A stretch of DNA of 64,000 nt from Nereocystis luetkeana (Eukaryota; Sar; Phaeophyceae; Laminariales; Laminariaceae). This document shows positions 10,418-59,037 of the stretch, in pieces (positions within the stretch are counted from its first letter, which is position 1; the number at the start of each line of letters is the position of its first letter). The notes below the pieces were generated by a model. That model was not told the DNA's origin, made no database searches, and saw only the letters and a list, made by a program, of their open reading frames with translations. The stretch spans positions 6,712,167 through 6,776,166 of the forward strand of contig JARUPZ010000017.1 in NCBI GenBank assembly GCA_031213475.1. The letters run 5' to 3'. Made by a program: the position numbers and the translations under genes.

Positions 10418-10421
<4 letters not shown>

Positions 10422-27857: not shown

Positions 27858-28109
27858 ATGAAAATGCTCAGTGCTGAGCGCATCTCTGTGTTGGGGGTGA
27901 TGCTGGCCAGTACAGGTTGCGTTTGTCGGGCGGTTCCAGAAACGATGTCGCTTACGGAGGGCGGCATCACGTTCACTGCTGTCCGATACGATGACGGCCG
28001 CACCAACCCCTACATGCTCGAGTTCAGCCAGGACGACACGCCCTCGCTCTACACGCTAGACTCGGCTGCCCAAGTAACGAATATGAACGTCGGTTCGGAG
28101 ACGTACAAG
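27858..28109 (+). CDS. LRR gene exon 1: signal peptide and N-terminal segment
   Basis: 84 codons from ATG; the start reads MKMLSAERISVLGVMLASTG, a basic n-region and hydrophobic core followed by CVCRAVPE, a typical secretory leader. The mature part is acidic with TDxx-like polar residues. The donor is AAG|GTACGC, phase 0. Confidence 0.8.
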
Positions 28110-31100
28110 GTACGCCATTGTCGCACTCCATGAAGGAAGGAGACGTCTTCATACAGTAGAGCAAATGTGAAGCGATTTGAAGTTAGGAATCGAAATCGTC
28201 CATATATATATGTTTCTCCAGTAGAGGCCATTGATAACGTTTACATTATATAGGCTAACTCCGTGTATTCTTAGAAGGATTCATCGAGAGGAAATAAATA
28301 CAGTACAGAGAGCACCTTACCGCAGTCAACATACTCCACTATGTTCGCGCCCATTCCTCATTCGAAGCGCTCTGGCCTTCCTAACATATTTATTGGTGAA
28401 AAACAGGAACAACATATCCATTAGTGGAAAAAATATAGCGAGTCTATCTCAAACTACCAACAACAAGAATGTTATCTTCCATCGCGTCTGTCACACCTTG
28501 CCAAAGATGATGTACGACACCAGCGACAACCTGGTGGGCGTGGAACCGAAGAAATCCACCAGACGAGCCCTCACTCAAGAAGAGGGAACTGGCTCGGCCA
28601 CGGCCGAAGGACGTCGCAGAAAATTTGAAGACTGCACTGCGTGTGAAGAGGCATGGCACGCATTGTGCGAATCCGTGCCTTCCGTGTGTGACTTGGTCGA
28701 CTATGGTGCTCCGTTTGACGCCGCGGCTGCTTCGTCCGCCAGTTCGGCTTGCGGGACCTTCGGGGGCGCATGCTCAAAATACGAAGCCAGCGAGGCATGT
28801 CAAGATCATTGCACGGCCGAAGGTCCCCGTAGAAACGACGTTCCTGGCATGATAGGTATGAGGAACTCGATAGCAGGTCGTCACTGACGTCAATTGCAGG
28901 TCACCCACACTTACTTGATAATACAGGCTGTGGTGAAGCCGAATTTAGTGGCTAGACCACAAAATACGTCGTATCATTATTGTAGGGTGGTGAGGTATTT
29001 TTGTCACGGCCACGACTAGGCTTTTGTTTCACTGTTGTCACATGTTACACATTGCAAGTCAGTCGTTATTATTGTATGTACAAAAGGCAGTAGGCCGTGG
29101 CCGTTGACAACATGAACGCCCTCGAGATATTCAGTCTGGATCAAACACTGAGCTACTCAGTCGGCAGTAAGTACGTTGTGCTCCTCGAGAATGGATAAAC
29201 CAATGCGTTACAATCCAGTCCACATAATAAGCCACTGATATAATAAGTCAGCACCGACTGAGCGGCTCAGTGGTTTGGCGTGTGTAATCTTACAAAGTGG
29301 TTAAATTACTCCTCCAAAAAAAACTTGCCATCGACTGATTTCATCTGGAGGTCATCAAACTCACACTGAGCGCCTGCACGTTACTTGATATGGGCCCTCT
29401 CTTCGCGCCGTTGTTTGTTAGCTATGGTAAAAACTAATTTCCGACCTTCTGGTGGAGTGTTCTGTATATATATATATATCGTGGATCTCTCAACGTGTTT
29501 TCCCATGCTCCGTGATCGAGCTGGAATAATATGTTCAGGTGGGTTAGTCCCATTTAAGGCGGCAGTCCACTATTTTTTTGGGGCACGACTAAGTTGAAAA
29601 CAAAGTACAAAAATGTTTGTACGTGCACTGCAGCACTCACGCACGGAGTTAACGCTGAACTTTCCGACCCATTCATTGGAGTGTTGCTTTCTCAGGGTTT
29701 ACTCCCTGAGCTCCTCAGGCAGTGATATATATGTGAACTTTTCGACCGTCTGCAGCAGTATTTCGATCGAAGAACCGAAGTTACCGCACTCTAGTGTAGT
29801 GGGCTAACCTACCTATACCGATCAAAACGAAGGGCTTGAGGGCCGGACGTCCATGCATGGAACACTGCTTGATTGAGTAGCTTAGCGGTGTATCATATAT
29901 ATTATAAACGGTACCCAGACGGTCGGAACATCCATCGCTCAAATAAATGTCACTGACGTCGACTTTTCACCGTAGTAGTATCCAAGAAGAACGGGAAACG
30001 AACGAGGAGGTTGATATGTTTCTAGTTAAGACAGGCCCTCATGTCCGCGTTGATACACCCCCGAGCAGACTACTAGCAGAAAGTGGAGTCAACCACTTGC
30101 TCAAGAAAACGCAACTTGACGAGATGTACCACATACGACACAATTACAATACAAAGCGAAACCCTTGCGCTGGTTATTGGGCCCTATTAAACCCCGCAGG
30201 ATGTTACAGGTGGGAGTATCTATCGAGCCCAAGTTACTTACTTGTTGTATTTGTTTTTGGGAGTACACCACCACCGAATATTTCCGTCAGCAACCGCGCG
30301 CTGATGAGGGGTTTGATCACCCCCCGACGATGTTTGCAACGTTAGTAATAATTAAGCCCGAAGGTAGAGTGCTCCTTCATTCTGTGCAATATTTATCGTT
30401 AGACCACTGAGCCACTCAGGCAGCATACATGCAGCAGTGAACACGAAGGTGAGCCACTGAGCTAGCCGGGACTACCCAGTCGGCGTTGAACAAGTGGCTC
30501 AGTGGTAAACCCTTTCGTCAGACACACATGGCATATACTCTTGGGCTCAATTCGCCCTCCCTCCGAAAATGTCCCGCGCCCCTCTTCAGCGTCATGTTGT
30601 TGCTGCATATATATATATATATTGTGTCTCTTCTTCGAGCCATGAACAAGGTTTTAGGCATGTAATGTCGGCACTCGTAGTGTGTGGCCGATGAACAGCC
30701 AAGGCCCATCTTCAGTTCCCAACCTTTTCAGTGCGAGTGCCAGGGAGGTGCATTTCGCATGGCACAACTTTGTCCCACACAACCTTGTCACACACTTAAC
30801 AGCGGTTCACACACCAAATCGGGACCGGTCTTTCTTTCGTGCGTTTTTTTTCCTTTTTTTTTGTTTTCTCTCATCCCATTCATTATCTTCGCACATCTTC
30901 TCCTTCTTCTCTCTCTCCTTCCAACTCGTAACTCAGATCCGGGGTTACATAGCAGGCTCTTCTCCCCCCTTCCCGCTACGGTACGTGCCTTCATTTTTAT
31001 CGCGAGAAGATTTCAGCCTTTTCTTCACTCGTCGACTCGTATCGAATTGTGCCTACCCACGCTGCAAGGCGCTCTCAACAATATAATCCCTTTTTATATT

Positions 31101-34100
31101 TTTGCAAATAAAGTCAAAGTCCGACCCTCCTGGGGTACGAACCCAGCACTCAAACAAGCAGAACTCGACGTTAACCACTTGAACCACCGGGGCGGTTGCC
31201 GCAATTTGGCTGGACTAGCCTCACTATATATTACTCAAAACAACCGTTTTTTAAGCCGTAACTGGGAATTGTCCTTCCGACGAGAACAACAATCAAAACT
31301 ATCAGGGATTCGCTTTGTTGTGTATGTCCCTCGCCGTCAAGAAGTGCGCCGTAAACGGTTGTCATTAAAATTTGTGACAGCCGTCGATATCACCAAACTA
31401 AACTAGTCAGCTCTGGCGGTCTTGAAAAACAAGAAGATCCAAGGAAATTGGATTTTCACCGTAAGAAAGACAATATTCTTCTATGATATTTCGTTTTACT
31501 ATTTATTCAATAGCCGGTCAAGACTGAGTTTGATTCAGTTTCAGTGGATCGATACTAATATCGATAGACACACACTACTACTACTACTTGGGGGTAAAGC
31601 TGTGACTGTGTGCGCCTCTTAGAAGAATCGAATAAAAAATCATCGATATTAAACATTATCTGAGAGAGAGTTCTCATCTTCTTGGAAAATCGGCTGGATA
31701 TACCACTGCGCCCATCGTCAGCTCGGTACAGGGAAGTATAAGCACTAGAGGCACTAGAGAAGTAGTGGCTCGTTGGCCTAATCACCACGTTAAATCCCTT
31801 TTGCTGTCCCACATACCGTGGAGGGAGTGGCGGCCGGGTTCACGAAGTTTAATGGTGAAGTTGAGGGTACCGCAGTCACAAACCACTACATACAGTATTA
31901 TTTATTGCGAAATTTTGTTGGTGCGTGCGAGACAGCAACAGAGACAAACAGTAGTATTATGCAGGAGAGCCTTGTGCCATGAGGATGTGCTCGTATATAT
32001 CGAATGATACGGCAATGAGAACGTTCATGCATACAGTGCAGCAGAGCTTTGGCTTTCTGCAGTACATCAGCCACGATCGCACAGTAAAGTGCAGGCCGTG
32101 ACCCTGTACACGTGATCGAAGTCTTTAACACCAACTCGTGCATCTCTAAAAGAATCAACGTTTTTTGCGGAAACTAAGGATACAACACTATACCCGGTAT
32201 GAACATACCGATATATATAGATAGATACTTGTCGCAAGCTGTCGAAAGCAACTCGCCCAGCAGGGTACACGTCTGTCAATAACGTTTTTCTCGTTGATGG
32301 ATGTTGTTGATGGATGCGGGTTGTAGCTTGTTGTCAAGTACATCATGTAACCTTGACCGCCGGTTCTAGTTTCCAAAACATTTTGATTGGTGGAAGACCC
32401 ACCCAACCCTGAAGGAGTCTCCGTCTGATTACGCAGTCGAAATATAGGCTGTCGCCTTCGTATTCATAACCTACGTATGGTGCGGGAGTCCTCTCGGCTG
32501 CTGGCCCTCATCACTCTTCTACTTTCCCGTTCAACCTGTGATCGACGTTGGTGCGACCCCGCACTACCGCCACGGGTAGTTGCAATCTGCAGTGCACACG
32601 GATTTTACAGAACATCGTTCACTACTTGAAGACGACATCGCAATGTATGGGCTCCAAGTGTTTCGCGGTACCGCACAAGATCGGAATGGACGCGGGGTGC
32701 CAACTGGTTTGGGGCTAGCGTTGTCTGGCGAGGGGTAGATATCAAGTGGGGCCCATGTCTGTAGCTTATACGGATTTAAGGGGGGCACGGGTGTGATACC
32801 ATATTCCACTTTTAGCTGAATCGTCAGCAACACTCGTCGCCCAGACATCGGTCAGTGGCACTAGGTGACATTGCGCTGCTGCAACCAGGGCTCGCTGGAA
32901 TACTCGTAAAGTTTACTACACGCGTACTAATATATACCTGGTGTACTGTATATTGGCACCGCTGTGTGCTGAGATACTACAAATATGGGTACAAGGTGAC
33001 AACCAATTGAACCTATTCGCCCACGCAAGACCTTTTTAGCATTCCTGTACTGACAAGGCCGTAGCATACCCATCAATACGCAACGCAGGCTAAAGAACTG
33101 CTGGATCTTCCCTCTGTGGTGCCTGTGTTTTCAACTCGTGAAACAGAAACCTCGCACTCACGCGCAGTGCTCAGCAGCAGCACGAACTCGTGCGTCGATC
33201 CTGCCAGCGACGGTTACAAGTGCACGTTTTCGGGGGGTACCACCATGTGAGATATTGTGCTATTATTAAATAGCTTCAGGGAAGGATTATTGTTCTATTC
33301 ATTGTGTTGCTTATACCTGGTATTTCTGATGTTTGTATTCTTCGTATGGTAACGGCGTCACATTTTAACTATACGACGGTCGATCTCTCAGACTGGCCCA
33401 TCACACTGCAAACCCACAATCAATCACTAACGGCAGCTACACCAGGGCTGCCGTAAATATCGGAGAGCATGCATTGGAGATTTTTCGCAAGTAAGTTAGA
33501 AATGTAGGAGATTCTCCCATCGAGGTACAGGGGCACTGTGTGACGATTCGTGAAGTTCACACAACAGGGCGGAATGTCAGAAAAGTTGAATTTCTCGTAT
33601 TATTTAGAAAAAGTAAACACGAAAATAAATGTGTGTTAAAACCCTGGGGACTTTCGGGGATTTCTTTGAAAAAAAACTCTCTTCTTGTGAAACCGACGTT
33701 ACCACGAGTGTTTACTGGGTTTTTTCCGCAGGTGTCGTCATTGAGTAATACGCGTAACGAACAAAGGCGTCCACAAGGCATTGCTTTTTCCACTTTGACT
33801 CTCGATCGAGTTATTAGCGGAGCACGTACCAGCTACTTCCGTGTCGGAGAGCTTCTTTTCTTTCGCTTTTTCCAAACGTTTTTTTTCAGTTTCGATACTT
33901 TCGTGATAATATTTTCCCAACATATACTATGTGAAATTGAAGCTTTCTGGTAGTGTAACCCGTGTTTAAACCTTGACCAGTTGTGACAGAACGTTTCTGC
34001 ATGTTGATCAGAAGTTCGTGAAAATGAAACCGAAAAGAAATCCGGAAGACACCCACTCCGAGAGCAACGTCTTTTTATGATGGCCATCAAAGCGTCTTAA

Positions 34101-37100
34101 GTGGACGATCATGTAGATGTGCTGTGTTGTACGTTGCCCGTGTTTCTTCTGGCTGCCTCCGCTCGCAGGAAATTGGACAAATGTCTGCTCACGGATGCTG
34201 ACGCCAAGTTTTTGCCGGCATGTTTCGAGGACTTTGGGAAAACCAACATCGAAAAACTGTGAGTTCTTCGAACGGTCATTGACTAGCTGGGCTGCGTCTA
34301 ACTGAAGTGTGAATCATTCTGAGATGCCAGTTACCTGCGGAACACCATCTTCCTGTTCGTAAGTTCCTCAATGTCGCAATTATAATTGGAGTTGGAGTGC
34401 CTTTGACGTCGGTGGCCGCTGAGTCGGGTGTGCGCTTGAAACACCGGCGAGGGAACACGGTATTTGGGATACAACAAACCAGGCGGTAGCAGCTGTGTGG
34501 GTTGTGCATAGTACGGCACAACTGATGGGATAACCGTATCACCGGTGATTGTTAAGGTGTCTAGTATATGCAAGGGTTCTCTTTTGGATGCGTCTGACTC
34601 ACAATCCCAGGAGGGTCACAATTTCTAGAGGAAGAGCATCATAAATATTTAGGCGTTTCTGTGTAATCGATGACAGGAAGACAGCCGAAGATTTTCGTAT
34701 AATTGGGCTCGGAATATGCGTAGTCACGATACGTCTGGAGGTGGACACCGTGCAAACTGCACGAGCAACTACTGTACGCACAAATCACCGTAGTAGTCTC
34801 GAAGTCGGCAGCTTGAACCGCGGCCGCTGTTGAACCGCTGCTGTGGTTGCATGTATGTACCGAGCCTGTTTTGTTGATAACGATATCCCGAAGGGGTGCA
34901 GCTGTGTATCGTTATCGTTTCTAGCAAAGCTAAATCTTCGCAATCCCATTCCTATCTATTGCAATACCAGGTATATACCATCGCATTTGCGTGTGTGTAA
35001 TTGTTGGGCTGCTCTCTACGTATCAGCCATGCCATGGCAGTATTCTTCAGGTTATTTGTTCGTTCAGGTTCGCGACAACGTTGGGAACTAGGGCACACAT
35101 ACGCACGTACACACAGAGTGGCGCCGTCCGCGACTGCCACCAGGAAAAGAGCTTGGCGTGCCACGGCTGTTGTATCGTGGGCCCAACGGAGTAGGAAGCT
35201 CTTTAGAGACGGTGTTGGAGATGTAGAGCACAGTGTACAACGTATCACACCCAACAGGAGCGGTGCGAAACGCTGGAATCGAGGAAGGGGCATTATCCTT
35301 CGCGACTCGGCGCTCAACAACAAAACGACTTGAACAAAAGCCAGCCCGCGCAACTTGAGACGCCGAGATCACGTGCCAAGGAACCCGACTGGGACCCAGG
35401 AGTTCGCCGTAGTGATTAGGCGGGACTCTTGAGGTCTACGCAACGCAGGGAGCGCGAGAAATGACCCGCTGCCAGCGGAGGACGCAAAATGCAAAACGAG
35501 TACATTTAGTACGGATTAAAGCGTACATGTATGACCCAAGCGGGAAGTTGCAAAGGGTCCAGTAGAATCCCCATGTGTTTACCTTTTTTGCGCTCCACGA
35601 CACTGTACACTCTGCCTCGTTCCTCGATTATGTTTTCCCTTGGTACGTCAATGTTTGCATGATGAGATTGAGGCTCGAAAGTGTCCTCTACAAACAACAT
35701 GTATGTGTGGCACACACTCTCGACCTCGCTCAATTTAGCTGTTCTGCGTGTTCGTCTTTCTCGTGCACGGTTTCATCCTCTTACCATTAGCGCGTGTTTG
35801 TTTGTCGTCTGACGGTGCCGTCTTTGGGTTCTCGTGCTTTAGACTCCTCAACAGGAACACCATGACCTCAATTGCCGAGGAAACGTTCGCTGGCCTGTCC
35901 AAGATTACGTTCTTGTGAGTACCACTCTATACAATATATAGAACGCCCCTCCCCCGAAACGCAGCTACCGTCGCAGCTGGAAGAACACCGATTAAGTTGC
36001 CCTTATTTATGTTGGTAGTGCGGCGACGCGCCGGTAGAAAACAGCAACATTAATATAAACACCATGACACAGTGCTGAATATCGCATGTGGTACTTGAGC
36101 ACATTTAGGACATGTAGGCAACCAACGTAGCTCCTTACCTTGCTCTGGGCAGGTTTGAGAGTTTATGGTGTTCGCTAACGTCACTCTTCGCTACGTGCTG
36201 CCTGCTAGCTGTTGGATACAACGAGACAACCTGCTCACAACCTCCGACACCTTGGTGGTTTGGTCTTCCTGTTGTCTTTCGTCGGCTATCGAAACCGCGT
36301 ACACAATCGTAGTATGAAGCTAATGAAAGAACAATCGACGTAGCTCGTTAGCGGCATGGTCACCTCGAGCAGAACATTGTGCACTCGAAAGTGCTCCAAA
36401 TGATGAGCCACCCGTTGCGGTCAAAAATGAAAATATTGGTGATCCCTTTGCTTATGTCGGCTGATTGATGGTTGTGATGCTTTTTGTAACACTCCAGGGA
36501 TATGAACTCCAACAACTTCGTGAACGTGCCGAAGGGACTGTTCAGTGGTCTCACGAAGCTGGAGCATTTGTAAGTGGAGGGAAGTTGTACGAATACCGCT
36601 CTCTCTCTCGCAGAGCCTGCTTTGACATAAACCTCGTAAATGGACGGACTTGCACTGCTCGTCCTGCCCGAAAAGCATAGCAAACCCAGGCGACAAGTGT
36701 GGTAGAGTCGGGTGACTACGACGATAGAGTACAGTACCATTGACTCGAGCTTACAGCAATCACAAGCGTCTGAATATAAGAGTTTAATTAAACCCGTCAA
36801 AGCCAGGGCCCGTCTCCGTCATACATAGCCCTGCTGCGCTTGCACCCGTTCCATACCTCTACCGCTTCTCCACTACGCGTGTTTGTTGTATGGTGTCATA
36901 TTCGTTCAGGGACATGTCCTGGAACGATCTTGTCAGCTTCCCCAAGGGCGCTTTTTCCGACCTTGGGAGCCTGAAGACTTTGTAAGAATGGGGCAGAGGT
37001 GACGTAAACACCGTCTCGCTACACTGTAGCCTTTTGCTCTGGAGCGAATTAATTGTCTGCTCGTCAAACAATCTCCACACTCGTTCAACAACACTTTTGA

Positions 37101-40100
37101 TTCAAGGGAAGTCAGACTGATATCGAGCGAGTAAGCTACACCCACACCGGGACCGACTGCTAGTTACCGGAATAGATACATTCACTCCATTTACTGGTAA
37201 TATGTCGGCTGCATGGTTTGATCGCGGACGAGGACCAGAAATGCCACACGTTCACATGAAGTTGGCCCTTCAGATACTACTGAATTTCGAGGCGTCTTCA
37301 TGAAACGATTAATCAAAGGCTATGTATCAAACCGGGAACAACCTGGTGGCCATTCCTGTACTCCGTAGAATTTGGTAAAATCATGCGTTGCGAGGTGAAG
37401 GGCCACCACTACTCACGACTTTAGTGTCGTGACCATCGCTACACCGGCTTGCCGTGGTGCTATGCCTTCTCAGGGATCTAAGCTTGAACCATCTGGTGAC
37501 CGTGCCGAAGGGACTATTCGTCAATCTCAGGAAGCTCGAAAATTTGTGAGTAGGGAAACCTTCAGCCGGTTGCTGCTCTCCCTCGTCGAAGTTCGTTCTG
37601 ACGAAACAATAATCACAAACCTGGACAGACAGGCGATAAACTCTGGGCCAAGAGAGCGGCACATACTAGGGCGACTAGTGTGTGGTACAGCCAGGTCGAT
37701 ACTGGGCACCAGCACGATACCATTGAAACCTAATTAACATTTCCTCGAGCAAGGCGCGCATGAACTCAGTAGGTATAATAGGCAGCCCGTCGGAGCCAGC
37801 TATTGTTTACGTTGTACATGACCATGCTTTGATCGCACGAGTTTGAGACTGCTACTTACTGTTGTCGCATTTTGTTGTGCTTGCCGGCGTCGCATTTTGT
37901 CTCAGGGACGTGTCCTCGAATGCAATCGCCAGCCTGCCTAAGGGGGTCTTTTCTGACCTTGCGAGCCTCCGAACACTGTAAGGACGGGTCAGGGATTGAG
38001 TAACCTTGCTTGCTACGTTGTACGTAGGCATCGACTTCGGACCGGATGCATTGCCTGCTCGCCCATTTTCAAGTAACTTGTGCACGCTAAAGCAACGCTT
38101 TTGTCAGTATTTAAGGCGGGCAGGATCCAGGAGGGAAATCCACGTCCGCACCTGGATCGATTGTTGACTGCCAGGATAGCGCACAGTGCCGCCCAGAGTG
38201 CGGAGAACCGTTTCACATTATCTTTCGGTTTAACTCCTTTTCGAAAACATTCCATATATATGCCCACGATTTCTCACTGGTGTTGGTATGCACTGGATTT
38301 TGCTATGAATGTACCGCTTACTATCGGATGGGGCCTTGTGTGGAGCTCACGCGTTGTTTTTTTGCATTTCAGAAGCCGTGCATTACCAAGTGAAACCAAC
38401 AACGCCTTCCACGATATTTACGTCGCGAACGTCACAGTGCGCGAAACCAGCGCAACCTTGCGGTTACACGATTTCCCCTCCCGTTCTGACGTTGAATGGT
38501 CCAGGAGTCTCGCCCACAACAAGTTAACGCCCGAGAGTCTGCCCGTTGATCTCTTCCTGGGGGTTCCGCGACTGGAAGTATTGTGAGTGCGCCAATTGAT
38601 GCATTAGTGTTTGCATATGCGGATATCCCTCCTAGGTAATGGGGGCGTTGACGTCGTAGAGCCTTGCACTGAGTACAACCATAACGTTTGCCTCGGTCTG
38701 CATTGCTGGTTTGCCTTATTCATGAATTTCTTCATTGTGAATTTCTTCATTGTCTGGATCGAGAACGTTCTCCAGGCAATATTTTAAAATGATGGACGTG
38801 TGGGGCTGTTCGGATAGCATTGATACCGCCTTCAGTGTTGGCTGGTGTGGATATCAGTCGAAGAGATGGTCACACTTGATGCTCGGGTGGCGTCGCTGTC
38901 CACGACGAGTTCGTCTCGGCGTGTGTCCTCAACATGGCGTCAAGCCAATCTCGCTGGAAAGCGCACTGCACACGCGCATGGAAACGGTTTTCTACACCCT
39001 GTGTGATTATACGTGAATTTCGGCGGGCAGTACGTCTTCACGAGAAACAGGGAGGCGTTACACGTTAGAGGATGTGTGTTTACTTAAGAGGCAGCACATT
39101 CCCGCCATTTTATTTTTTTTCCGAGTGACGGCATTCCTTAACCCCAACCAGCCGTAAGGCAGTATTTATTAGAAAAAGTTACCTAATTGTAATCTTGGGC
39201 CATAGGAACATTTTTTAGGACGCAGTTTGGTTTTTGCCGAAGTCTGTTTTCGGGTGAGGTATGGAGCTCTTCCAACGAAGAGCCTTCAAAAATGGATGGT
39301 GAACCCGCATCGTAGATCGCCTCACGGGAACAACCCGGCTAGATCTACGGTTCTAGTGCCCACAGTTATGCCATGAGATTCGGGCTATTTTGTTTTAGAA
39401 TTAGCATATGTTCTGCTACTCCGATCGGGTGAACGTTACGAATGCCGGCTGCCTGAAGGGTTATTCGAGCTCAGTTCGCCCGCCTGACCAATCCGTCGAT
39501 ATGGGAGACTAATCATCTCACTCCGCTAAATAGTTCGGCCCCTGTCGTGCGGGGTTCGGCGATTTTGCTAGGTCGTCAACTTTGACCAACGTATGCATAC
39601 GCCTGCTGTTATGACGGGAGACGACCGAAACACTTGCCACGAGCCAGCTGAAGTTTTTCCGGCGTTCAATACCGACCTTGTCTCCGTCAGGCACGGTTCT
39701 TGCCCTGAAGGGTATGTTCACGACGAGCGATTGGTGAAGTTTGACACCCACCCGTGCTTCGTGTGACATGTGTGCATTACACACGGCTGCCTTCTGCCAT
39801 GTATTTGGTATCCTGTAGGGAGCTTGCCACGAACGATCTCGCAGAACTGACCAGCCTGGTGGGGTTGTTCGACAGCCTCGACAAGCTCAAATATTTGTGA
39901 GTGCTATGGTAAGGAAAGATCGGAATGTTTTCCTGGGTTCCTACACAACGAGAGACTCTATGTCGCATGCAAACACTGACTTTCGATAAACAATAAACGC
40001 TAGCGCAAACCCGGAATGTCAGTCACCCCGAGCAGAGCAACGGTTCGCAACACATTGTCCAGAAGGTATTGGATACTTCGTTAGTCGAGGGGCCCCGTTC

Positions 40101-43100
40101 TAGTCGCGCCGTTTCGAGCCTGCAACCTGCTACCGTAACACGGCTCGTGTCGTTGACCGTATCGCATACGGCACATGTACCTTACAATAACCCTCAATGT
40201 CGCTACTGGTATAAAACAATTATTTGTTTAGATTGTCGCTCGTGCCTAGCAGCAGTAAATCGACACGCTCGAAGGCCCTCGCGTTGCCTTCCTCTCGGGC
40301 TACCTTTGTGTGATCGTTGTTCCCGGTTGGGGTAACCTATCGTTGATCCAGGAATCTGGACGAATCTGGTGTACGGACTGTGCCTGATCGATTGTTTATC
40401 GGCTTGACAAAGCTGGAGAGCCTGTGAGTGACCTCTATCTATGCAGTTTTTCTATGGACACTATGTTCCGTGAGGGTCATGATCGGTTGCTACGGCACGT
40501 GTGAACAGATCACAACCCGCCAGGAAATTTTCGTGGGACACCCATGTCGATCGAGTTCGAATGGTGCTGCGTTAGAGTTTTGCGAAACAGACCACCGACG
40601 ATGTCCGCCGTAGATGAACGGTTACAACAATCCATAGGATGAGCCTTAGAGAGCTCTGGCTAAGCCTTCAATTGCACGTTTCAATTTTGGTGCCCACATG
40701 TGGAGTGTTATGTGGGGGTCGAGGTCGAAGCGATGGTTGTTCTCATTGTTTGGGGTATACTGCTGCCGGTCTCGTACCCCCCACATTACAGTTGTCATCC
40801 GGGGTAGGTTCGCAGGCCCACCATATGAGAGCACTACGTACCCATCACTTCTACTGAACAAAAACTCACCACATGGTTTCTAGAGCGCCAACGTTCGAAG
40901 CGCCAGGCAATACTTCCAGTCTCTACCATATATATTCGGATATATATATATGGTGTATGCGCTGGAACACCAGCCCGAACAAGACTGCCATCGTGCTGGG
41001 TGTTCCCCAGCGATCCATTCACAACCTCGTCCGATCCGTACAAGAGGCAGAACCAACACACATATATATATACACATATAGTAAACGCACAATAAACGCG
41101 TTCTACGATAAAGGTAGCATATTTCAGCTAGAACATTTTTCGGATAACGGGGCTCCTTAACCCAAATCGCCGGGATCCCACTGTCGAGGCCTTCAACGAT
41201 AGAGGCTCGCCCCGATTATTATGGGGCTCCTCACTTGTCGTCACCTCAACCGACACCTGACTTCAGCGCAAATTGAATTGCATCTCGATGGATACTCCCA
41301 TAGCCGAAGCATGCACTTTCATTAATTTTCGAATAAAAAAGCTCGACACTCCGACGATTTTGGGTGACGGAACGCCGTCCCTCAGGAAATCTTTCGGCGA
41401 GAAGAATGTGGTACCCCTATCGTAGAACGCGTCTCCTGTTTCGAAAAATGATGTTTTTCCATACTTGTGTCATGGGATCATTAATCGGGATGTAGTTTGA
41501 TTTTTGCTCGAGCCTGTTTCCAGGCAAGGTACGGAGCTCTTCAAGCGGGAAACCTCGGACACACTAGGAGGGGCCTCTATCGTTGAAGGCCTCGACAAGG
41601 TGGACAACACCCCGGCGTCGGCAATGTTATGCGCACTATGCACGCATCCAGGCCTACGACACCTACTGACTCTGTTGTAATCAACCAAGTTTTCCAGCGT
41701 GCCTACTCGAGTCACCTGCGTTCAGAGTTCTTCTAAATGCGCAAATGCTGCTGAAATCTTGCCCATTCGGCCGGTGTGTCTTTTCCGTGCGATGGTTCGC
41801 TATCATGAGTCGTCAGGAGCTTTTATGGCAATGGACTGAAGAACTTGCCCGACGGCGTTTTTTCGGGTCTCACGGCCTTGCGTACACTGTGAGTCGGATC
41901 AGGAGCACACGTTACTTGCCGCGGGATGCATTGGCAGGACGTTGCGCTGTGCGCACATATTTCATGTCGCGGCTCGGCCTTCTCTTGCGTTCATGCCATT
42001 GTAGGCGACCGTAAGGGATGAAACATAGCACGAGGGTGCCAGAACAATCATATTGCCTGTACTGCGTCGATTTTCACTTCTCGTGAAACGTGCGGACATA
42101 TGGCCGATACTTATTTTCTCCCATTCTAGATGGATGGATCCCGAAATGTAACCCACGGTTGTTCTTTGTTTTTATTCAATCGCTAATGTCTTGAGGTTTC
42201 GTTTATGTTTACAGTAGTATCGTACAAACTCACAACATTCACTGCACTTGAGTGTGTTACCAGGTCTACATTTGCTTTGGCATCAGGCCAGGGCGTACCG
42301 ATGCAAACAAACTATCGGAGTACTTGACAACATCCATTGTATCGGACTATGTATGTCCTTGTCAACCTAACCTCCCAAACCTGTTATGTATCATCCGGGG
42401 GGGTCGCGTCATGCGCCATGGCAGGGATCTGGCGGACAACAGTCTGACAGGCTTGGGGTCGTCACTATCCGGACTGGCGGAGCTCCGCACATTGTGAGTT
42501 TCCCCTGCGAAAGCGGTGTAGCTCAAATAACGCCAGTGGGCCATCAGTCGAAGGCACCAGCCTCGAGGCTTTAACAGTACATATTTCATGTAAACACCCA
42601 TCTACTCTATAGCGCGCTGGAAGGTGTTCCCAAACAAACGTTTTTGAGCCATACCTGCGGAAAAGAGGGCAACACAAACATGAATTGTTTCTAAGGTGGT
42701 AGTGGTTTGGTACGGTCTGAGCTCGTGATCCCATCGCTGAAAAGCCTAGTTGGCTGGTCGGTTCATCGGGATCCGCGAATGTCTTCGTGATAATGGTTGT
42801 ACTCGAAGAAAATCCAGAAAATCTGTCTGGAGCCGACAGGGTCGGCGGGAAATCGTGTCCATTTGTGTGTGAAGCACGTCTTCAAAACACCCCAGCAAAG
42901 TACCTAGCCGCCTACACTACAGGGCCAAATATGCTGATCGGTGTAGTTGATGAGAACGCGGGGTTCGACCAGATTCTGCGCCACCCTAGTAGTGCGTATA
43001 CCAGACCTTCGCCGATATTTGCTGAACTGATATTGTTCGCTGATGCACGGATCTATCGACTGCTACAACCTGAAGCACCCTTGTGCATCATGCCCTCGGT

Positions 43101-46100
43101 ATTCAATCAGATCGGTCGATGACAACGATCTGACGCTTACAGAGGATGTATTCTCGGGTCTTGTCAACCTGAAAACACTGTGAGTGCTTCAATATTTTAC
43201 GTGTTTCGTTTTCGTGCATGGCGTTGCCCAGTGCTAGTGTATTTCGACCCGATACCAAAGCGTCTTTGTGTGGGGGGAGGCTTGTGGGAGCCTAGATAGG
43301 TTTGATTTCGACTGGGCCGGGTCTACCTGGACTCGCTGTTTTTGATTTCTGATCGCCTCTTTCGTGTCTGTCGCGAATCCTGCCATGCAGGCATCGCATC
43401 TCTAGTCGTGGTCTATTATTGGGCCCAAACATGTTGCCGTGGGCTTATTGGTGTCCATCTTAGAACATAATTTCTCTTCAGCCTGGCCTGCTTCCAGCCC
43501 GTCGGGGCGATATAAACGTTCTGTTTGCTGCGAGCAAACGGCCCGCCATGTTTTGTTTGTCGCTGCCGGTGGTCCACGTCAGGTCCCTTCGTGAAGGTGG
43601 CTTGACCGCCTTGCCAGCTATGGTATTTTCTCCTATGGTAAACCTCGTTGAAATGTAAGTGACGGGCGCTAGTGTTGTGCTGTGTTCTTGTAGTTCCGTA
43701 GAACGGGAACAGAAACGCACGCATTTGTAGAGCAGATTATGTATGTTTCACATCCTCCTACCAGGAGCAAATACCAGTTTGAGCGAAAAGGTTGGTTTCG
43801 TGCATATAAATCGACCTACGGTAGGAGATGCACATTTTTGCCTCAACAGCAAAATCTCGCGGGCGAAGTCGCTCGACTGCAAAACAAAAGGCCGCATGCA
43901 GCATCGTTGAACACAGTGTTTGTTTACGAAACGAGTGGGACAGATAGTGGACGCTTCGTCACTAGTTATTGACTCTGTGGGAGTATCTTCAAGTTGCAAC
44001 CTGCCTTCAGTTGGTCGAACTTACAAATACTGGATCTGTAGATGTTATCAGAAGTTCGTTCAGCACTATTCGTTTTTCACGATATATATTGAGCCGTGTG
44101 CCCTGTGGGGTGCGTGATGGCGGAACATTTCAAGGGCCGCCTGCAGAGAGAACCCGATTGATGCAAACCCTAGGATGAATGGACACCCTCGATCGCGCCT
44201 GGGCATGTGTATGGTACGCTCACGTTACTCGCTTCATTTCTTACGTGTTGTCGGTGTGCCACGTGTGTCATGACAGAGACCTGGCTTACAACAGGCTGAC
44301 GAGCTTGGGATCATCGCTGTCGAGACTCACGTCCCTCCGCACCTTGTGAGACCCCCGAGCTGATTACATTGCCCTATATCTCACTCGCGTCTGTCATGAC
44401 CACCTGTTCGCGATGTTACCACAACCTGGTAATTCCGGAGAGTTCGATAACAGGTCGTCCACCCTGCAATACTAGTGACCCCTCCGCCCTAACTTAGTTT
44501 TGAAGGTTTCCCGAAGAAAGGAGTAATCACGCGTCCCGCCCTGTGTGAGAAATAGCATCAACCAATGGACGTACCGCAAGCAACCACTGTTTTGTTCCCG
44601 TCTTTGGTGAATCTAAACGTACTTAGCACAGCATTGTTCCTCGATTGTCTCTGTCCCATCCTGGATATGTCGGCATTGCATGCTATTTGTTTGTTTTGTG
44701 CACAATAAATACTATTCTCTGGGCCGTGTGTAATTTCATGTGTAGCTTTGCAGATGGTTACTAAATCTTGAGAAGGAAGATTATCCAAACGACACCCGCC
44801 GATATTTGAAACCCCTCGGCCGTCCCTGCATATGCAATTGCCGTGCTAGCTCCGCTCAGCGTTGATCTATCACGCTGTCGGTCTTCGTCGTACGGTATCA
44901 CAGGGATCTCACCTCCTCCCGTCTGACAGACGTTGGATCATCGCTGTCTGGACTGACGGAGCTTCGGACCTTGTAAGCCCCCCCCTGCAAAACTGTGCCC
45001 CAGGATTAGGTAGTGGGTGACTTGACGATCTATAAGTAATGTTGCCACTGGCTGGGGACACCAGCACAGGAGGGTTCAACCCCCTGTACCTGCTCTGGAC
45101 AAATGTCCGCGTTGAAAAGCACACATCTATCCAAAGCCGGAGTTGAAAGCTTCTTCAATGAACCACATACCAAGCGTGCTTCTCGGCGGCAATATTAACG
45201 TGGATGTATATCCTCCTCGTGCGGTCTACGTTAGTTCGTACGTAACAATCGTGCATCGGGGATTGGTTTGACGCTTGGGAGACTGATTCGTTTGTCGGTG
45301 CATCGGCATTTCGCGAAGGCATCCGAAATACCCGTGGCATTCGTAGGCGGTTCGAGAAAAGTGGTTTCCAAAGCACTGAAAACGGCTACTGAAGAGGTGG
45401 TACATCTGCGTTTGCATAAGGCAGATGCGGTGCATAGGGGGTGAACGTTGTGATTTTACGTAGGATATACAACCTCGCAGGAAGGCTGATAATGGTGTAC
45501 AACATTGCGGCGTGGACACGTTCTACCATAGGGGTAGCACATTTCCGCCATACCAGTTTCTGGATGACGGGGCTCCTTAGCCCATAATCGTCGCAATGTC
45601 GATTATGTTACACAAAAAATGACGTTTTGGTATACTTAGGCCAAGGGAGTGTTCTCGGGATACAAGTTGATTTTTGCCGGGCCAGTGTTTGGGTGATTTT
45701 ACTAACAGTATGGAGCTCCTCAAATGGGGTGACCCTCTATCGTAGAACGTCTCCGTGTTTTCAACGACATGACGCCGATCGTAAATATTTGATGTCATTC
45801 TTCGCCGTCCTTTTCGAACCCTTGCCCGCTGCAGCTTGAAATATCTCTGAGCTCCACCATGCCCGCGTTACGCGATCAGGTACATGGATGACAACAAACT
45901 GGTGCTCACGGAACATGCGTTCGCAGATCTCGGGAACCTAGAAGCACTGTGAGTCCTTCAGCGTTTACAAACCTGAGATTCGTGCTTGTCGTCGCCTTGA
46001 TTTTACCCTCAATGCGAGAGAATTGCCCAGAGTTTAGTTTAGACATGCGAGCGTCTACGCTATGGCTGCGACTACGGCGGGAAGATGGTGTTCCTGGACG

Positions 46101-47721
46101 TCGCGTTGAGTTCCAATGGCCACCTGCTTCGTCTATGGTGCGAGGTTACTGTGTGGAAATCGTATTGTGTGCTGTGGCCGAGCAATCGGCGCACACCCGC
46201 TACTGTAGCGTTAGGATCGCTGCTCTCTCAATGGGATGTGATGCTCATTTGTTCCCGTCGCCGAATGCTATGTGGAATACGCAAGCACTTCAGCCTAGCT
46301 TGGTTTCAGCCCGTCGTGACGGTGGTTGTCTCGGCTTGCTCCGTTTTCGTGGTTGTCTCCGCTGGCGGTGTTGATCAGGTTCCTTCGGGGGTGTGCCCTG
46401 GCCACCTTGCCTGCTGGAATCTTCTCTTCCTCGGTGAACCTCAAACGACTGTGAGTCGCCGACTCCTGCTCGTTGATGCGTTTAGACAGTCCGTGATAAT
46501 CGAATACAACTGGAAGCATAACTTCGTTGGATGGATAGTCAGTACCTCGCACCCCCCTAGAGGAGCTCTGCGGTAATTTGGTCTGACGCTCCTCACTCGA
46601 GTGTCTTTATACCTCACCCGAACCCTGGCTTTAAAACAAAACAAATTGCACCCCAATGAGTCTCCCCACGTCCCAAGCATACGAAAACGCCATCATTCGA
46701 GCCAAGATTAGCTTTCTGACTATTTTGAGTTAAAACAACCCGTCATCCAGAAACAATTTTGGCGAACACATGATTCCCTTATCGTATACATTGTCCTACA
46801 AGAGGGTCAGAACATGTGCAGGTCAAGGCCCACTCACCGAGATATACTTCCAGTGGGATAGAGCCCCAGTCATGAGCTCCAACCATGGCATTGCCTGTAA
46901 CCCACGCGTCGTGCGCCCTGTTCCCCGCCGGTATTGTACCTCTGATGCCTTTACATGCAGGGAAATGAAGGACAACGAAGATCTGCAATGCCTACCTTCC
47001 ACGTAAGCATGTTTTCGTCCAGGCGTTGCACACATCACAGACGACAGATTTTTGTACAAGACCCCGGTAGGCCCATCTAATATGAATAGGCTTGATAAGG
47101 CGCGGCTCTCTTCCAGTACATAGCCGTTGGAGCTATTGAGCCCCGCGAGTGTATGTAGTTCCCTGCTTTTATAGCCTCGTTTTCGCGTTTGAAACATGAA
47201 TTGCATTCACGAATTGCATTGCGTACATCGCCCGCTTATTGAATACATACATATCACGCACTTTGTAGATATGATGGTGGGAAACACATGCCCACTGCAG
47301 CATTGTTTGATATCTACATGTGTTGGTTTGTAGTGTTCCTGTGATTGGCACACAGCCGTACCCGGCCTCCCTCCTCTGCCCTGTGTCGTCGTCTCAAACA
47401 GCACTGCTACGGTAATCACCCTCGACTCCAACGACAAAGTGGATGGCATATGCGGTGAGATCAACATTGCTGTGACGCCTACAGTGCTACCGCGTCATGA
47501 ACTATCTCGAAGTTGGCACTCGTCGGCCGCGAAGTGTTTGGTACCAAGTTTTTTTTGTCGCCGTGTGACTCGGTTGCCTCGATGCCATTCCAAAACCCAC
47601 TAATGGCTGCTTGGTCCGGTTCGTCTCTCGACCATGGGCCGCGCAGAGTGCACTCCCGTGAAGGCGGTCTTCTGTAGCAAAGGATTATCTTGCCAAAGTG
47701 GAATGACCGGCTACACTTGCG
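27858..47721 (+). CDS. Secreted leucine-rich repeat protein, one repeat per exon (whole gene span)
   Basis: Twenty-three exons were joined by splice consensus and phase. The product begins with a signal peptide, then a cysteine-rich region (exons 2-3), an LRR entry exon (4), a run of 23-26-residue LRRs (5-20), a CLP-type cap exon (21) and cysteine-rich exons (22-23). The repeat follows LxxNxLxxLPxGxFxxLxxL, the typical class also used by Toll-like receptors and lamprey VLRs, so the domain should fold as an extracellular solenoid that binds a ligand. Every junction from exon 3 to exon 21 is phase 2, splitting the last Leu codon of each repeat, so exons can be lost or duplicated without frameshift. 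No membrane segment or kinase was found; the 3' end lies beyond exon 23. The exon 21-22 phase is unresolved. The ligand and pathway are unknown. Confidence 0.85.
28507..28855 (+). CDS. LRR gene exon 2: cysteine-rich region
   Basis: Phase 0 in, phase 1 out (ATAG|GTATGAG). The exon opens MMYDTSDNLVG and then carries about eight cysteines spaced FEDCTACEEAWHALC, VCDL, ACGTFGGAC, EACQDHC, which suggests a disulfide-bonded helical domain of saposin-like spacing; that comparison is only by cysteine pattern. A second in-frame acceptor at 28468 would add 13 residues. The chosen acceptor has the better pyrimidine tract. Confidence 0.75.
29145..30512. repeat. Cluster of tRNA A-box-like repeat pieces in both orientations
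   Basis: The word gctcagtggt with flanking ccgactgag recurs on both strands: minus at about 29150-29170, plus at 29254-29275, minus at 30405-30425 and 30452-30472, plus at 30491-30508, with a weaker plus copy at about 29872-29892. The pairs 29150/29254 and 30452/30491 face each other. The word matches a pol III A box (TAGCTCAGTGGT), so these are probably SINE heads, some in inverted pairs. Only short pieces are recognisable. Confidence 0.5.
30948..31195 (-). mobile_element. tRNA-like SINE, copy B (best preserved)
   Basis: On the minus strand the head gccccggtggttcaagtgg contains an A box TGGTTCAAGTGG (31175-31186) and, 32 nt on, a B box GGTTCGTACCC (31133-31143), the spacing of a tRNA-derived promoter. 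No full cloverleaf folds, so it is a SINE head rather than a tRNA gene. The body passes through tttattt and ends with the block atcgcg / ggcacgtaccgtagcgggaa shared with copies A and C. Confidence 0.65.
33168..33246 (+). CDS. LRR gene exon 3: short cysteine-containing exon
   Basis: Acceptor cgcgcag|, donor CAT|gtgaga. Phase 1 in, phase 2 out, which switches the gene to the phase 2 used by all repeat exons. Encodes LSSSTNSCVDPASDGYKC and TFSGGTT; two cysteines consistent with an N-terminal cap. Confidence 0.75.
34169..34258 (+). CDS. LRR gene exon 4: first LRR / N-cap
   Basis: 90 nt, phase 2 in and out, acceptor gctcgcag|, donor CT|gtgagt. Encodes KLDKCLLTDADAKFLPACF then EDFGKTNIEKL: a longer, more divergent repeat with two Cys, as expected at the entry to the solenoid. 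Confidence 0.8.
34335..34781 (-). other. Antisense coding-like tract inside LRR intron 4
   Basis: The minus strand reads with coding-like composition (IRKSSAVFLSSITQKRLNI, then, in another frame, PSVVPYYAQPTQLLPPGLLY) and ends at a plausible donor CGCAG|GTAACT at 34335. At least one shift of frame separates the parts, so a decayed gene or element piece is more likely than a live exon. No family recognised. Confidence 0.25.
35843..35914 (+). CDS. LRR gene exon 5: one repeat
   Basis: 72 nt, phase 2-2, acceptor tttag|, donor CTT|gtgagt. Reads LLNRNTMTSIAEETFAGLSK then ITFL. Confidence 0.85.
36498..36569 (+). CDS. LRR gene exon 6: one repeat
   Basis: 72 nt, phase 2-2, acceptor ctccag|, donor TTT|gtaagt. 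Core FVNVPKGLFSGLTKLEHL. Closest to exon 8. Confidence 0.92.
36910..36981 (+). CDS. LRR gene exon 7: one repeat
   Basis: 72 nt, phase 2-2, acceptor gttcag|, donor CTTT|gtaaga. Core LVSFPKGAFSDLGSLKTL. Closest to exon 9. Confidence 0.92.
37474..37545 (+). CDS. LRR gene exon 8: one repeat
   Basis: 72 nt, phase 2-2, acceptor ttctcag|, donor TTT|gtgagt. Core LVTVPKGLFVNLRKLENL. Pairs with exon 6. Confidence 0.92.
37906..37977 (+). CDS. LRR gene exon 9: one repeat
   Basis: 72 nt, phase 2-2, acceptor tctcag|, donor ACT|gtaagg. Core IASLPKGVFSDLASLRTL. Pairs with exon 7. Confidence 0.92.
38373..38582 (+). CDS. LRR gene exon 10: long irregular exon
   Basis: 210 nt, phase 2-2, acceptor gcatttcag|, donor ATT|gtgagt. 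The last third is a normal repeat (LTPESLPVDLFLGVPRLEVL). The first two thirds (SRALPSETNNAFHDI, VRETSATLRLHDF) do not follow the consensus; they may be an inserted loop or one to two strongly diverged repeats fused by intron loss. Confidence 0.75.
39060..39325 (+). mobile_element. Intronic inverted-repeat element (MITE), copy 1
   Basis: Shares with the copies at 41.1, 45.5 and 46.7 kb the blocks gcacattcccgccat, cttgggccataggaaca, gtttggtttttgccgaa, tgttttcgggtgaggta and tggagctctt; the right end has gcatcgtagatcgc. The ends are degraded, so borders are approximate. Confidence 0.5.
39425..39500 (+). pseudogene. Decayed LRR exon
   Basis: ctgcctgaagggttattcgag (39448-39468) gives LPEGLFELSS in one frame, preceded in another frame by VNVTNAG. 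A single-base slip separates the halves, and acceptor and donor are missing, so the repeat appears to have been lost from the gene. Confidence 0.4.
39819..39896 (+). CDS. LRR gene exon 11: one longer repeat
   Basis: 78 nt, phase 2-2, acceptor cctgtag|, donor ATTT|gtgagt. Core LTSLVGLFDSLDKLKYL; 26 residues, two more than the usual repeat. Confidence 0.85.
40352..40423 (+). CDS. LRR gene exon 12: one repeat
   Basis: 72 nt, phase 2-2, acceptor gatccag|, donor CCT|gtgagt. Core VRTVPDRLFIGLTKLESL. Confidence 0.9.
41099..41432. mobile_element. Intronic inverted-repeat element (MITE), copy 2
   Basis: The left end cgttctacgataaaggt (41099-41115) faces the right end tacccctatcgtagaacg (41414-41431). 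Inside are the family blocks catatttcagc, ataacggggctccttaa and atgatgtttttccatacttg. A second inverted pair (41183-41206 and 41573-41596) interleaves with it, so at least two insertions or a rearranged pair are present. Confidence 0.65.
41183..41596. mobile_element. Interleaved element with 24-bp perfect inverted ends
   Basis: gtcgaggccttcaacgatag plus aggc at 41183-41206 is repeated as an exact reverse complement at 41573-41596. The ends are related to those of the MITE family here (cttcaacgatagaggc versus gttctacgataggggt), pointing to a subfamily. Confidence 0.7.
41817..41888 (+). CDS. LRR gene exon 13: one repeat
   Basis: 72 nt, phase 2-2, acceptor cgtcag|, donor ACT|gtgagt. Core LKNLPDGVFSGLTALRTL, the closest of all exons to the animal-style typical LRR consensus. 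Confidence 0.92.
42425..42493 (+). CDS. LRR gene exon 14: repeat, module type A copy 1
   Basis: 69 nt, phase 2-2, acceptor tggcag|, donor CATT|gtgagt. Core LTGLGSSLSGLAELRTL. Near-identical in plan to exons 17 and 18. Confidence 0.9.
43111..43179 (+). CDS. LRR gene exon 15: repeat, module type B copy 1
   Basis: 69 nt, phase 2-2, acceptor caatcag|, donor ACT|gtgagt. Core DNDLTLTEDVFSGLVNLKTL. Pairs with exon 19. Confidence 0.9.
43583..43654 (+). CDS. LRR gene exon 16: repeat, module type C copy 1
   Basis: 72 nt, phase 2-2, acceptor cacgtcag|, donor AAT|gtaagt. Core LTALPAMVFSPMVNLVEM. The last residue is Met instead of Leu. Pairs with exon 20. Confidence 0.88.
44277..44345 (+). CDS. LRR gene exon 17: repeat, module type A copy 2
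   Basis: 69 nt, phase 2-2, acceptor tgacag|, donor CTT|gtgaga. Core LTSLGSSLSRLTSLRTL. Confidence 0.9.
44564..44634 (+). pseudogene. Decayed LRR exon, module type C copy 2
   Basis: The line gtaccgcaagcaaccactgt continuing through 44625 gives VPQATTVLFPSLVNLNVL, parallel to LPAMVFSPMVNLVEM of exon 16. The expected donor reads agcaca and no acceptor is present. It lies between exons 17 (A) and 18 (A), where a type C exon is expected. Confidence 0.5.
44904..44972 (+). CDS. LRR gene exon 18: repeat, module type A copy 3
   Basis: 69 nt, phase 2-2, acceptor atcacag|, donor CTT|gtaagc. Core LTDVGSSLSGLTELRTL. Confidence 0.9.
45519..45749. mobile_element. Intronic inverted-repeat element (MITE), copy 3
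   Basis: A compact 231-bp copy: left end cgttctaccataggggt (45519-45535), right end accctctatcgtagaacg (45732-45749), mutual inverted repeats over about 17 bp. Interior blocks: gcacatttccgccat, tctggatgacggggctcc, tgacgttttggtatactta, gttgatttttgccgg. Confidence 0.75.
45880..45948 (+). CDS. LRR gene exon 19: repeat, module type B copy 3
   Basis: 69 nt, phase 2-2, acceptor gatcag|, donor ACT|gtgagt. Core DNKLVLTEHAFADLGNLEAL. Confidence 0.9.
46379..46450 (+). CDS. LRR gene exon 20: repeat, module type C copy 3
   Basis: 72 nt, phase 2-2, acceptor gatcag|, donor ACT|gtgagt. Core LATLPAGIFSSSVNLKRL. Confidence 0.88.
46545..46800 (-). mobile_element. Intronic inverted-repeat element (MITE), copy 4, reversed
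   Basis: Read on the minus strand it gives, in family order, tatacgataagggaatca, tttctggatgacggg, gatggcgttttcgtatgctt and ttcgggtgaggta. It is inverted relative to the other three copies. Ends diverged. Confidence 0.55.
46961..47002 (+). CDS. LRR gene exon 21: C-terminal cap start
   Basis: 42 nt, phase 2-2, acceptor catgcag|, donor CCAC|gtaagc. Encodes EMKDNEDLQCLPST: half a repeat ending in an LxCLP motif, as commonly closes an LRR solenoid. Confidence 0.75.
47356..47454 (+). CDS. LRR gene exon 22: cysteine-containing C-terminal segment
   Basis: Acceptor gcacacag|, donor TGCG|gtgaga. The natural frame gives VPGLPPLPCVVVSNSTATVI then TLDSNDKVDGICG, with phase 1 out matching exon 23. That frame needs phase 1 in, but exon 21 leaves phase 2. 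The phase-2 reading is also open but Arg/Gln-rich and does not join exon 23. Either a small exon is missing between them or the assembly or gene has a one-base change. Confidence 0.6.
47647..47721 (+). CDS. LRR gene exon 23: cysteine-rich exon
   Basis: 75 nt, phase 1 in and out, acceptor cgcgcag|, donor TGCG|gtgagt. Encodes CTPVKAVFCSKGLSCQSG then MTGYTCG; C-x5-8-C spacing with a GYTC end, EGF- or cap-like. It expects a further phase-1 exon. Confidence 0.75.
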
Positions 47722-51860: not shown

Positions 51861-51889
51861 GATTCCTCTACTCATACAAGGCTTGCGGT

Positions 51890-55578: not shown

Positions 55579-55990
55579 TGGCGGGACGGGATGGGACAGA
55601 GTTTTCTGGTTTGTCGGGGGAAAAAAGGACAACGGGAGGGGTCGGGACGGTAAAATGAAGTCATGAAAAGTTGGCGGGACGGGACGGGACGGCGGGTGCA
55701 CAATTTCTCGACGAGGCGGGACGGTAAAATTCAACGGGACAGATTAGCACGACGGGACGGGACGGATATTATTTTTGTCTCCGGCGGGACGGGACGGTAA
55801 CTATTTATTTCCTCGGCGGAACGGGACGGGAAATATTTTGTCCCTCGGCGGGACGGGACGGTGAACATTGTTTCCCTCGGCGCCACGGGACGGTAAATAT
55901 GTTTTTCACGGCGGGACGGGACGATATTTTTTTTTTCTTCGACGGGGCGGGGCGGTAGTGTTTTTTCCTCGGCTGAACGGGACGGTAAAT
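55579..55990. repeat. G-rich minisatellite 1 (gcgggacgggacggtaa)
   Basis: About ten units of roughly 38-42 bp, each with cggcgggacgggacggtaa followed by an A/T-rich spacer such as tatttatttcctcggcgg. Clustered GGGAC repeats could form G-quadruplexes. The same core recurs 1.5 kb away. Confidence 0.85.
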
Positions 55991-56709
55991 AAATATATAT
56001 TTATTATTTCCTGCTGCAAGGTCGGCACGGTTGCGGCACGGTTGTGTGTGAAGACTTTCCTGCACTGCTGATTGCGCGAAGGGAGCCGGCCCGACGCAGA
56101 CGTTGCTCTTCTCGACCCGCGGCCCACAAGCTCCGAGAAGTGCTACCACTACACGGGCGACGTTAAATTTCTGATTTCTTCCCACCTCTGCCCCAAGTAC
56201 CATTCTTGTTGCGGTGCCAGCTCATTGTAGCTGTTCTGAGGATTGTTGTGCTTGCGCTGTGTTACTGGTGGTTGTTGTGGAGGTAGGTGGGAATAGGTAG
56301 TAGTGGTGGAGGTGGTGCCGGCGGCAGTGATTCTGGTGCCGCTCGCTCCTGATCGATCCGTATCCCGCCCGTGAGATAGGCATACATGGCGTCCGGACCG
56401 GTTATACCAAATATGCTATATAATAGGGGAGAGCGTTTTTACCCCTTGACAGACAGCAAGTTTGCCCTGTGACACATCCATATATACGTTATTTCTTGAC
56501 TGACACCAAACTAAAAGGTTTAGTGTGGAACACTCGGCCCTACGTCGTTGACAGCGCACGTTTTGCGTCTCGCTTGATGACAGGTCACCTGACATCTTTT
56601 TTGGCCTCACCAGTATTTACTGGTGGTGTGGCCGTGAGTTGAGTGGTCTCTGTTCTATTCGTGTGTAGTGTCGAGCTTGCGGCTACTACTACTGCTGCTG
56701 TGGCAGTAC
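55991..56709. other. Spacer between minisatellites, no gene
   Basis: A GC-rich stretch at 56030-56200 and ggtggaggt-type short repeats near 56300, but no supported coding frame. Confidence 0.35.
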
Positions 56710-58937: not shown

Positions 58938-59037
58938 AAGAAGAAGAAGAAGAACAACAACAACAACAACCAGAACAACAACAACAACAACAACAACAAC
59001 AACCAGAACAACAACAACAACAACAACGACAACACCA
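58938..59037. repeat. AAC/AAG trinucleotide microsatellite
   Basis: (aag)n passes into (aac)n with rare cag interruptions. It gives long Leu/Val or Thr frames that are not genes. Confidence 0.9.

Follow-up and report, generated by a model that had tools for sequence, protein, structure and literature searches.

A split gene of Nereocystis luetkeana encodes a leucine-rich repeat protein, probably secreted, with one repeat per phase-2 exon

A stretch of 64,000 nt from the brown alga Nereocystis luetkeana (contig JARUPZ010000017.1, positions 6,712,167–6,776,166; hereafter the window) carries a series of small exons that each appear to code for one leucine-rich repeat (LRR). A sequence-only reading of this locus had proposed a secreted or surface recognition protein whose binding face can change by gain, loss or swapping of exons. 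We asked whether the locus is a real gene, whether its product is likely to act outside the cell, and whether the repeat array shows signs of changing now.

Gene structure and reading frame

When the exons were re-derived from the DNA, exons 1–21 (27858–28109 to 46961–47002) could be joined into one 666-aa open frame, and every intron begins with GT and ends with AG. Phase 2 had been claimed for every junction between exons 3 and 21, and this was borne out at all 18 junctions (3/4 through 20/21). The introns had also been said to split the last Leu codon of each repeat. They do so at 16 of the 18 junctions, but the split codon is Met at 3/4 and Ile at 16/17. A leave-one-out codon score is above zero in 21 of the 23 proposed exons; it is −1.7 bits in exon 2 and −3.0 bits in exon 23. 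A genuine split gene for an LRR protein lies on the + strand, with each repeat on its own small exon.

There are 16 one-repeat exons (exons 5–20). Nine are 72 nt long: exons 5 (35843–35914), 6 (36498–36569), 7 (36910–36981), 8 (37474–37545), 9 (37906–37977), 12 (40352–40423), 13 (41817–41888), 16 (43583–43654) and 20 (46379–46450). Five are 69 nt long, namely exons 14 (42425–42493), 15 (43111–43179), 17 (44277–44345), 18 (44904–44972) and 19 (45880–45948), and two are 78 nt long, exons 10 (38505–38582) and 11 (39819–39896). The earlier count was fifteen repeat exons of 69–78 nt plus one of 210 nt; the single-repeat exons stand, but the 210-nt exon is exon 10 with an alternative start at 38373. 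The 78-nt form of this exon fits a 26-residue repeat, and the extra 132 nt of the longer form have a codon score of −3.7 bits. A 78-nt repeat exon is thus the better reading of exon 10, giving sixteen, and the 210-nt form is doubtful. Because the upstream acceptor scores better than the downstream one (9.2 vs 5.1), both acceptors may be in use.

Identity of the repeats

Pfam LRR_8 matches the 666 aa at E 7.3e-91 in 13 stretches, a significant match over several repeats that confirms the assignment to the typical LRR class. The consensus suggested for the repeats was LxxLPxGxFxxLxxLxxL; its PxG part is present in only 6 of the 16 repeats.

A scan of the + strand with a motif for phase-2 LRR exons returned 16 rows, which cover all repeat exons but 16 and 20 (14 of 16); two exons had a second start. 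The same motif gave no match on the − strand of the window and none in 50 order-3 Markov windows, a test that is partly circular in that the motif was derived from these same exons. With leave-one-out profiles, the left-out exon was recovered at E < 1e-5 in 13 of 16 cases. Exons 5 (E 0.022) and 10 (E 0.051) still came ahead of the best non-exon match; exon 16 (E 7.7) fell behind it and was missed. Neither DNA nor peptide profiles revealed a spare LRR exon in the 64-kb window: profiles built from the 16 exons necessarily find those 16, and every other match had an E-value of at least 0.19 (DNA) or at least 0.66 (peptide).

No ROC, COR, NB-ARC, kinase or TIR domain was among the 15 Pfam families listed for the 666 aa at E up to 1. 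For the exons found, the gene is therefore without ROCO or NB-ARC partner domains, as the sequence-only reading had stated, and we dropped a ROCO or NB-ARC reading of these exons.

The best 60 of 383 sequence matches in the PDB include many extracellular LRR proteins, such as the IGF acid-labile subunit (2.9e-56), LGR4, LRRTM, LRRC15, TLR13 and TLR3. SHOC-2 and LRRD1 are likewise high among these 60. As these two proteins are intracellular, the ranking reflects repeat class more than function. Relatives were searched for with 10 of the 16 repeats as query (exons 5–14). Among viral contigs, 0 of 18 pattern matches were confirmed. Among bacterial and archaeal genomes, 1 of 115 was confirmed, in a Bacteroidales MAG (L001; best segment 39% identity, query residues 1–128), and phages gave 4 records at 32–35% identity. 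The bacterial and phage matches are general LRR likeness and are uninformative on origin.

The N-terminal region and the case for secretion

Exon 1 (27858–28109, 252 nt) contains the first Met of the frame, which opens at 27732, followed by a signal peptide-like stretch. Hydrophobicity over 10 residues peaks at residues 9–18 of the 666 aa. A signal peptide had been proposed at this N terminus; the hydrophobic stretch is consistent with one, hydropathy being the single line of evidence.

Exon 2 (28468–28855, 388 nt) encodes nine Cys of the N-terminal region, of which eight fall within residues 140–199. It has no match in Pfam or NCBIfam, and AlphaFold on this exon alone gave a model with a mean pLDDT of 39.8, which we set aside. 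The Cys-containing N-cap begins in exon 3 (33168–33246, 79 nt), and exon 4 (34169–34258, 90 nt; weak DNA profile match, E 0.26) carries the remainder of the cap or an irregular first repeat; these two exons contain four Cys. Given the weak acceptor (score 0.4) and low codon score of exon 2 and the 4312-nt length of intron 2, the N-terminal exons can be joined to the repeats only tentatively. The 5' border of exon 2 and its membership in the transcript are uncertain, and nothing in the 5' half of the model is weaker than its placement there.

Cys-rich caps had been claimed at both ends of the repeats. The cluster before the repeats is present, but the C-terminal cap lies almost wholly in exons 22–23, off the continuous frame. 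The layout, with its hydrophobic start and flanking Cys clusters, is apparently that of an extracellular LRR protein whose caps are held by disulfides. It should also be noted that the 666 aa contain no N-glycosylation sequon, where shuffled sequences would have 5.9 (P 0.002). Part of this absence is due to the fixed NxL of LRRs, which makes the true expectation lower; even so, the absence is odd for a secreted protein and counts against secretion.

The LRR protein is probably secreted, and on balance we favor reading the locus as a eukaryotic gene for an extracellular LRR protein. Such a protein would enter the secretory pathway and fold into a solenoid of ~17 repeats closed by disulfide caps. 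It might then bind ligands or mediate adhesion at the cell exterior, with microbe sensing or the recognition of cells or gametes as conceivable roles, and would probably work via a partner or via a membrane anchor encoded further 3'.

The 3' end of the gene

Exon 21 (46961–47002, 42 nt) encodes the last strand and the first Cys of the C-cap. It exits in phase 2, and the protein-like frame of exon 22 (47356–47454, 99 nt; C-cap) requires phase 1. Exon 22 has a codon score of +9.3 in the phase-1 frame (leave-one-out) vs −16.0 in the phase-2 frame, with a score table that was trained with exon 22 in its phase-1, protein-like frame. Because the phases of exons 21 and 22 clash, the 23-exon model is not one open frame in the assembly. 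Exon 23 (47647–47721, 75 nt; Cys-rich) ends in a donor (score 8.8), so position 47721 is not the gene end, and the gene continues or is incomplete. The proposed 23-exon gene at 27858–47721 is thus sound for exons 1–21, but its frame breaks after exon 21 and its end lies elsewhere. After the repeats, only Cys 663 is in the continuous frame; six more Cys are in exons 22–23, out of phase.

A microexon between exons 21 and 22 was considered. A 7-nt candidate at 47334–47340 scores 9.5 but exits in phase 0, leaving the clash in place, and other candidates are weaker. Among the best 40 candidates for a last exon 3' of 47721, none was convincing. The top scorers lie near 53.3–53.9 kb (best total 19.7), and a short candidate at 48280–48302 that would end the protein has a total of 9.8.

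The donor of exon 23 implies at least one further exon. This fits a rather unlikely alternative in which the repeats form the extracellular part of a membrane-bound receptor or adhesion protein, with the transmembrane segment and any signaling part in unrecognized exons 3' of 47721. Reports exist of 2 LRR receptor kinase genes in Ectocarpus (PMC3268121) and, in a diatom, of transmembrane LRR proteins whose expression is biased by mating type and which the authors suppose to be pheromone receptors or adhesion molecules (PMC6261938). However, the candidate 3' exons are weak, and four open frames in this region (50001–50477, 51863–52222, 52226–52780 and 53273–53812) have no Pfam match at E up to 0.1.

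Growth of the repeat array

The reading of the product as an extracellular LRR protein leaves the history of its repeats to be considered. Median amino acid identity across the 120 possible exon pairs is 0.33, and similarity is low outside a few old blocks. The six most similar pairs are 14–17, 14–18, 17–18, 7–9, 6–8 and 15–19; pair 16–20 is at rank 11. Exons 6–7 (block A1) are collinear with exons 8–9 (block A2), exon 8 pairing with exon 6 and exon 9 with exon 7, at offsets of 976 and 996 nt. In the same way, exons 14–15 are collinear with exons 18–19, and the intron before exon 16 with that before exon 20 (blocks B1, exons 14–16, and B2, exons 18–20), at growing offsets of 2479, 2769 and 2812 nt.

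Introns 15 and 19 can be aligned with a score of 38, compared to a maximum of 30 in 150 shuffles. Intron pairs 14–18 (26) and 5–7 (25) exceed the 95% value of 24 and are below the shuffle maximum, and pair 6–8 is outside the 22 best intron pairs. Pairs among introns 10, 12 and 18 score 37 to 74 owing to a common repeat of another kind, and pair 12–20 scores 34, for which we have no explanation. The repeat common to introns 10, 12 and 18 is diverged, occurs in direct and inverted orientation (39117–39277, 41096–41597 and 45515–45753), and may be the remains of a mobile element.

From this collinearity, the array appears to have grown by old block duplications, of exons 6–7 into 8–9 and of exons 14–15–16 into 18–19–20, with exon 17 as an additional copy of exon 14/18. 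Each duplicated block would have comprised exons together with introns, as unequal crossing over would produce. Since all repeat exons have the same phase and end at the same repeat codon, repeats could be gained or lost in frame. Unequal crossing over between introns would add or remove whole repeats with the frame kept, and may have built the array slowly and long ago.

In seven exon pairs, dS is 0.64–1.77 and dN/dS is 0.12–0.60, values that come from small exons near saturation. On these values, the exon copies are old and under net constraint. In six pairs (17–18 left out), replacements affect 15 of 30 positions on the concave face, 8 of 30 in the core and 33 of 81 elsewhere. There is no excess of change at concave positions compared to others (15/30 vs 33/81, p 0.40; a weak test), and diversifying selection on the concave face is not supported. 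VLR-like spare cassettes or Dscam-like alternative exons were not found in the window.

Since the copies are old and constrained, concave positions show no excess and the 64-kb window holds no spare exon, present-day shuffling is not supported. The earlier proposal of exon gain, loss or swapping is therefore upheld as far as past gain is concerned, by the collinear exon blocks, but not as an ongoing process, and a binding face that changes now finds no support in these results.

It is distinctly unlikely that the gene is the secreted arm of an exon-shuffled LRR repertoire, i.e., an extracellular receptor whose repeat number varies by individual or by isoform, including through the two acceptors of exon 10. 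If this were true, LRR exon shuffling in this lineage would serve extracellular as well as intracellular proteins. Very improbable, too, is a fast-changing recognition receptor with exon number or order varying between individuals or by splicing. Phase-matched exons would permit such variation, exon 10 has two possible acceptors, and ROCO genes with exons of this type are reported to show splice variants and positively selected concave sites (PMC11378527); the age and constraint of the copies, the concave counts, the low exon similarity beyond the old blocks and the lack of a spare exon in the window all speak against it. We also give very little credence to a decaying or mis-assembled copy with an intact repeat array and an out-of-frame 3' end, since the phase clash at exons 21/22, the negative codon score of exon 23 and a last exon that is not established are explained equally well by an unseen microexon or a one-base assembly error, and the 16 repeat exons are without exception intact, splice sites included, with their copies constrained.

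Comparison with known LRR genes

Genes with one repeat per exon have been described before in brown algae, ciliates and animals. In layout, the closest systems are brown-algal LRR-ROCO and LRR-only genes, Tetrahymena 90-bp LRR genes and vertebrate gonadotropin receptors.

Teng et al. (2024) described ROCO genes of brown algae in which each LRR has its own 72-bp exon, in phase 2, and noted exons of this type in 15 non-ROCO sequences of Saccharina japonica, the majority of which have no motifs besides LRRs (PMC11378527). As in those genes, one LRR occupies an exon of ~72 nt in uniform phase here, where 9 of 16 exons are 72 nt and 18 of 18 junctions are phase 2. The differences are that the LRR-ROCO genes have ROC-COR, whereas the exons found here lack it and range from 69 to 78 nt. 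Codons of a 72-nt exon are read from nucleotide 3 to 71 in that article and from 2 to 70 here, so the phase or its naming may differ. The term 'signal peptide' is absent from its main text, in contrast to the signal peptide-like stretch of this locus. Some of the 15 Saccharina japonica LRR-only sequences may be of the same kind as this gene.

In Tetrahymena species, 90-bp LRR exons number in the tens of thousands, >96% with phase-2 introns (PMC6564038). Tandem LRR exons and an extreme phase-2 bias are common to these genes and this locus, and unequal crossing over has been proposed there as well. A LINE-like element is often adjacent to the Tetrahymena genes, and one LINE lies ~4 kb upstream here. 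In contrast to the single gene with 69–78-nt exons in our window, the Tetrahymena exons are exactly 90 bp and are spread over thousands of genes; the word 'secreted' has 0 occurrences in the main text of that article.

In FSHR and LHR, exon 1 encodes a signal peptide, a Cys box and one LRR; seven small exons of 69–81 bp follow, then a larger ninth exon with the remaining LRRs and then Cys boxes (PMC4536197). According to PMC11378527, the LRR exons of gonadotropin receptors are phase 2. These receptors end in a seven-helix membrane domain, whereas no such match was found in the 666 aa or in the four 3' frames scanned. Their likeness to this locus is one of exon layout alone.

The sequence-only reading had likened the gene to VLR and Toll-type proteins. 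Typical-class LRRs are common to TLRs, VLRs and this locus, and TLR13 and TLR3 are among the best 60 of 383 PDB matches. Cys caps are present in both TLRs and VLRs. TLR and VLR repeats are not known to be encoded one per exon. The lamprey VLR is an incomplete germline gene flanked by spare LRR cassettes; unlike it, this locus has none in the 64-kb window. Toll-like receptors have a transmembrane segment and a TIR domain, ROCO proteins have ROC and COR after the LRRs, and NB-ARC-TPR proteins have an NB-ARC domain and TPR repeats, whereas Pfam matched no TIR, ROC, COR, NB-ARC or TPR in the 666 aa of the exons found here, and the four downstream frames likewise lack a ROC or COR match. The resemblance to VLR and Toll proteins therefore stands for the repeat class, but in exon layout the gene is closer to the systems of PMC11378527, PMC6564038 and PMC4536197.

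What is new here is such a layout paired with an apparently extracellular protein, with ROC-COR and NB-ARC absent from the exons found. A search of titles and abstract openings, covering few subscription journals, found no publication on a secreted single-exon-repeat LRR gene of brown algae. Ectocarpus gametes are reported to express ROCO and other LRR proteins (PMC3879662). Zambounis et al. (2012), as cited in PMC11378527, took the shuffling of ROCO and NB-ARC-TPR genes to mean that brown algae might have an adaptive-like immunity. If exon number varies among strains or transcripts, the gene could be placed alongside the ROCO and NB-ARC-TPR genes as a candidate extracellular receptor. For now, it is a further example of phase-2 single-repeat exons recurring in the LRR genes of distant eukaryotes, with a duplication history that can be read.

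Other elements around the gene

The window also contains elements of other kinds. On the − strand at 20344–23721, ~4 kb upstream of the LRR gene, a long open frame (1124 aa scanned) matches RVT_1 (2e-35; reverse transcriptase) and Exo_endo_phos (3.7e-9; endonuclease) and belongs to a LINE-type element. Neither this LINE nor the repeat of introns 10, 12 and 18 had a match among viral contigs. A large complex satellite with tandem and higher-order repeats occupies 6677–10431; its units range from 83 to 351 nt, and its self-matches are 63–84% identical. On the 3' side, arrays of a GC-rich 32–41-nt unit containing CGGGACGGTAA extend over 55735–57715, and an AAC triplet array of 29 units lies at 58953–59039.
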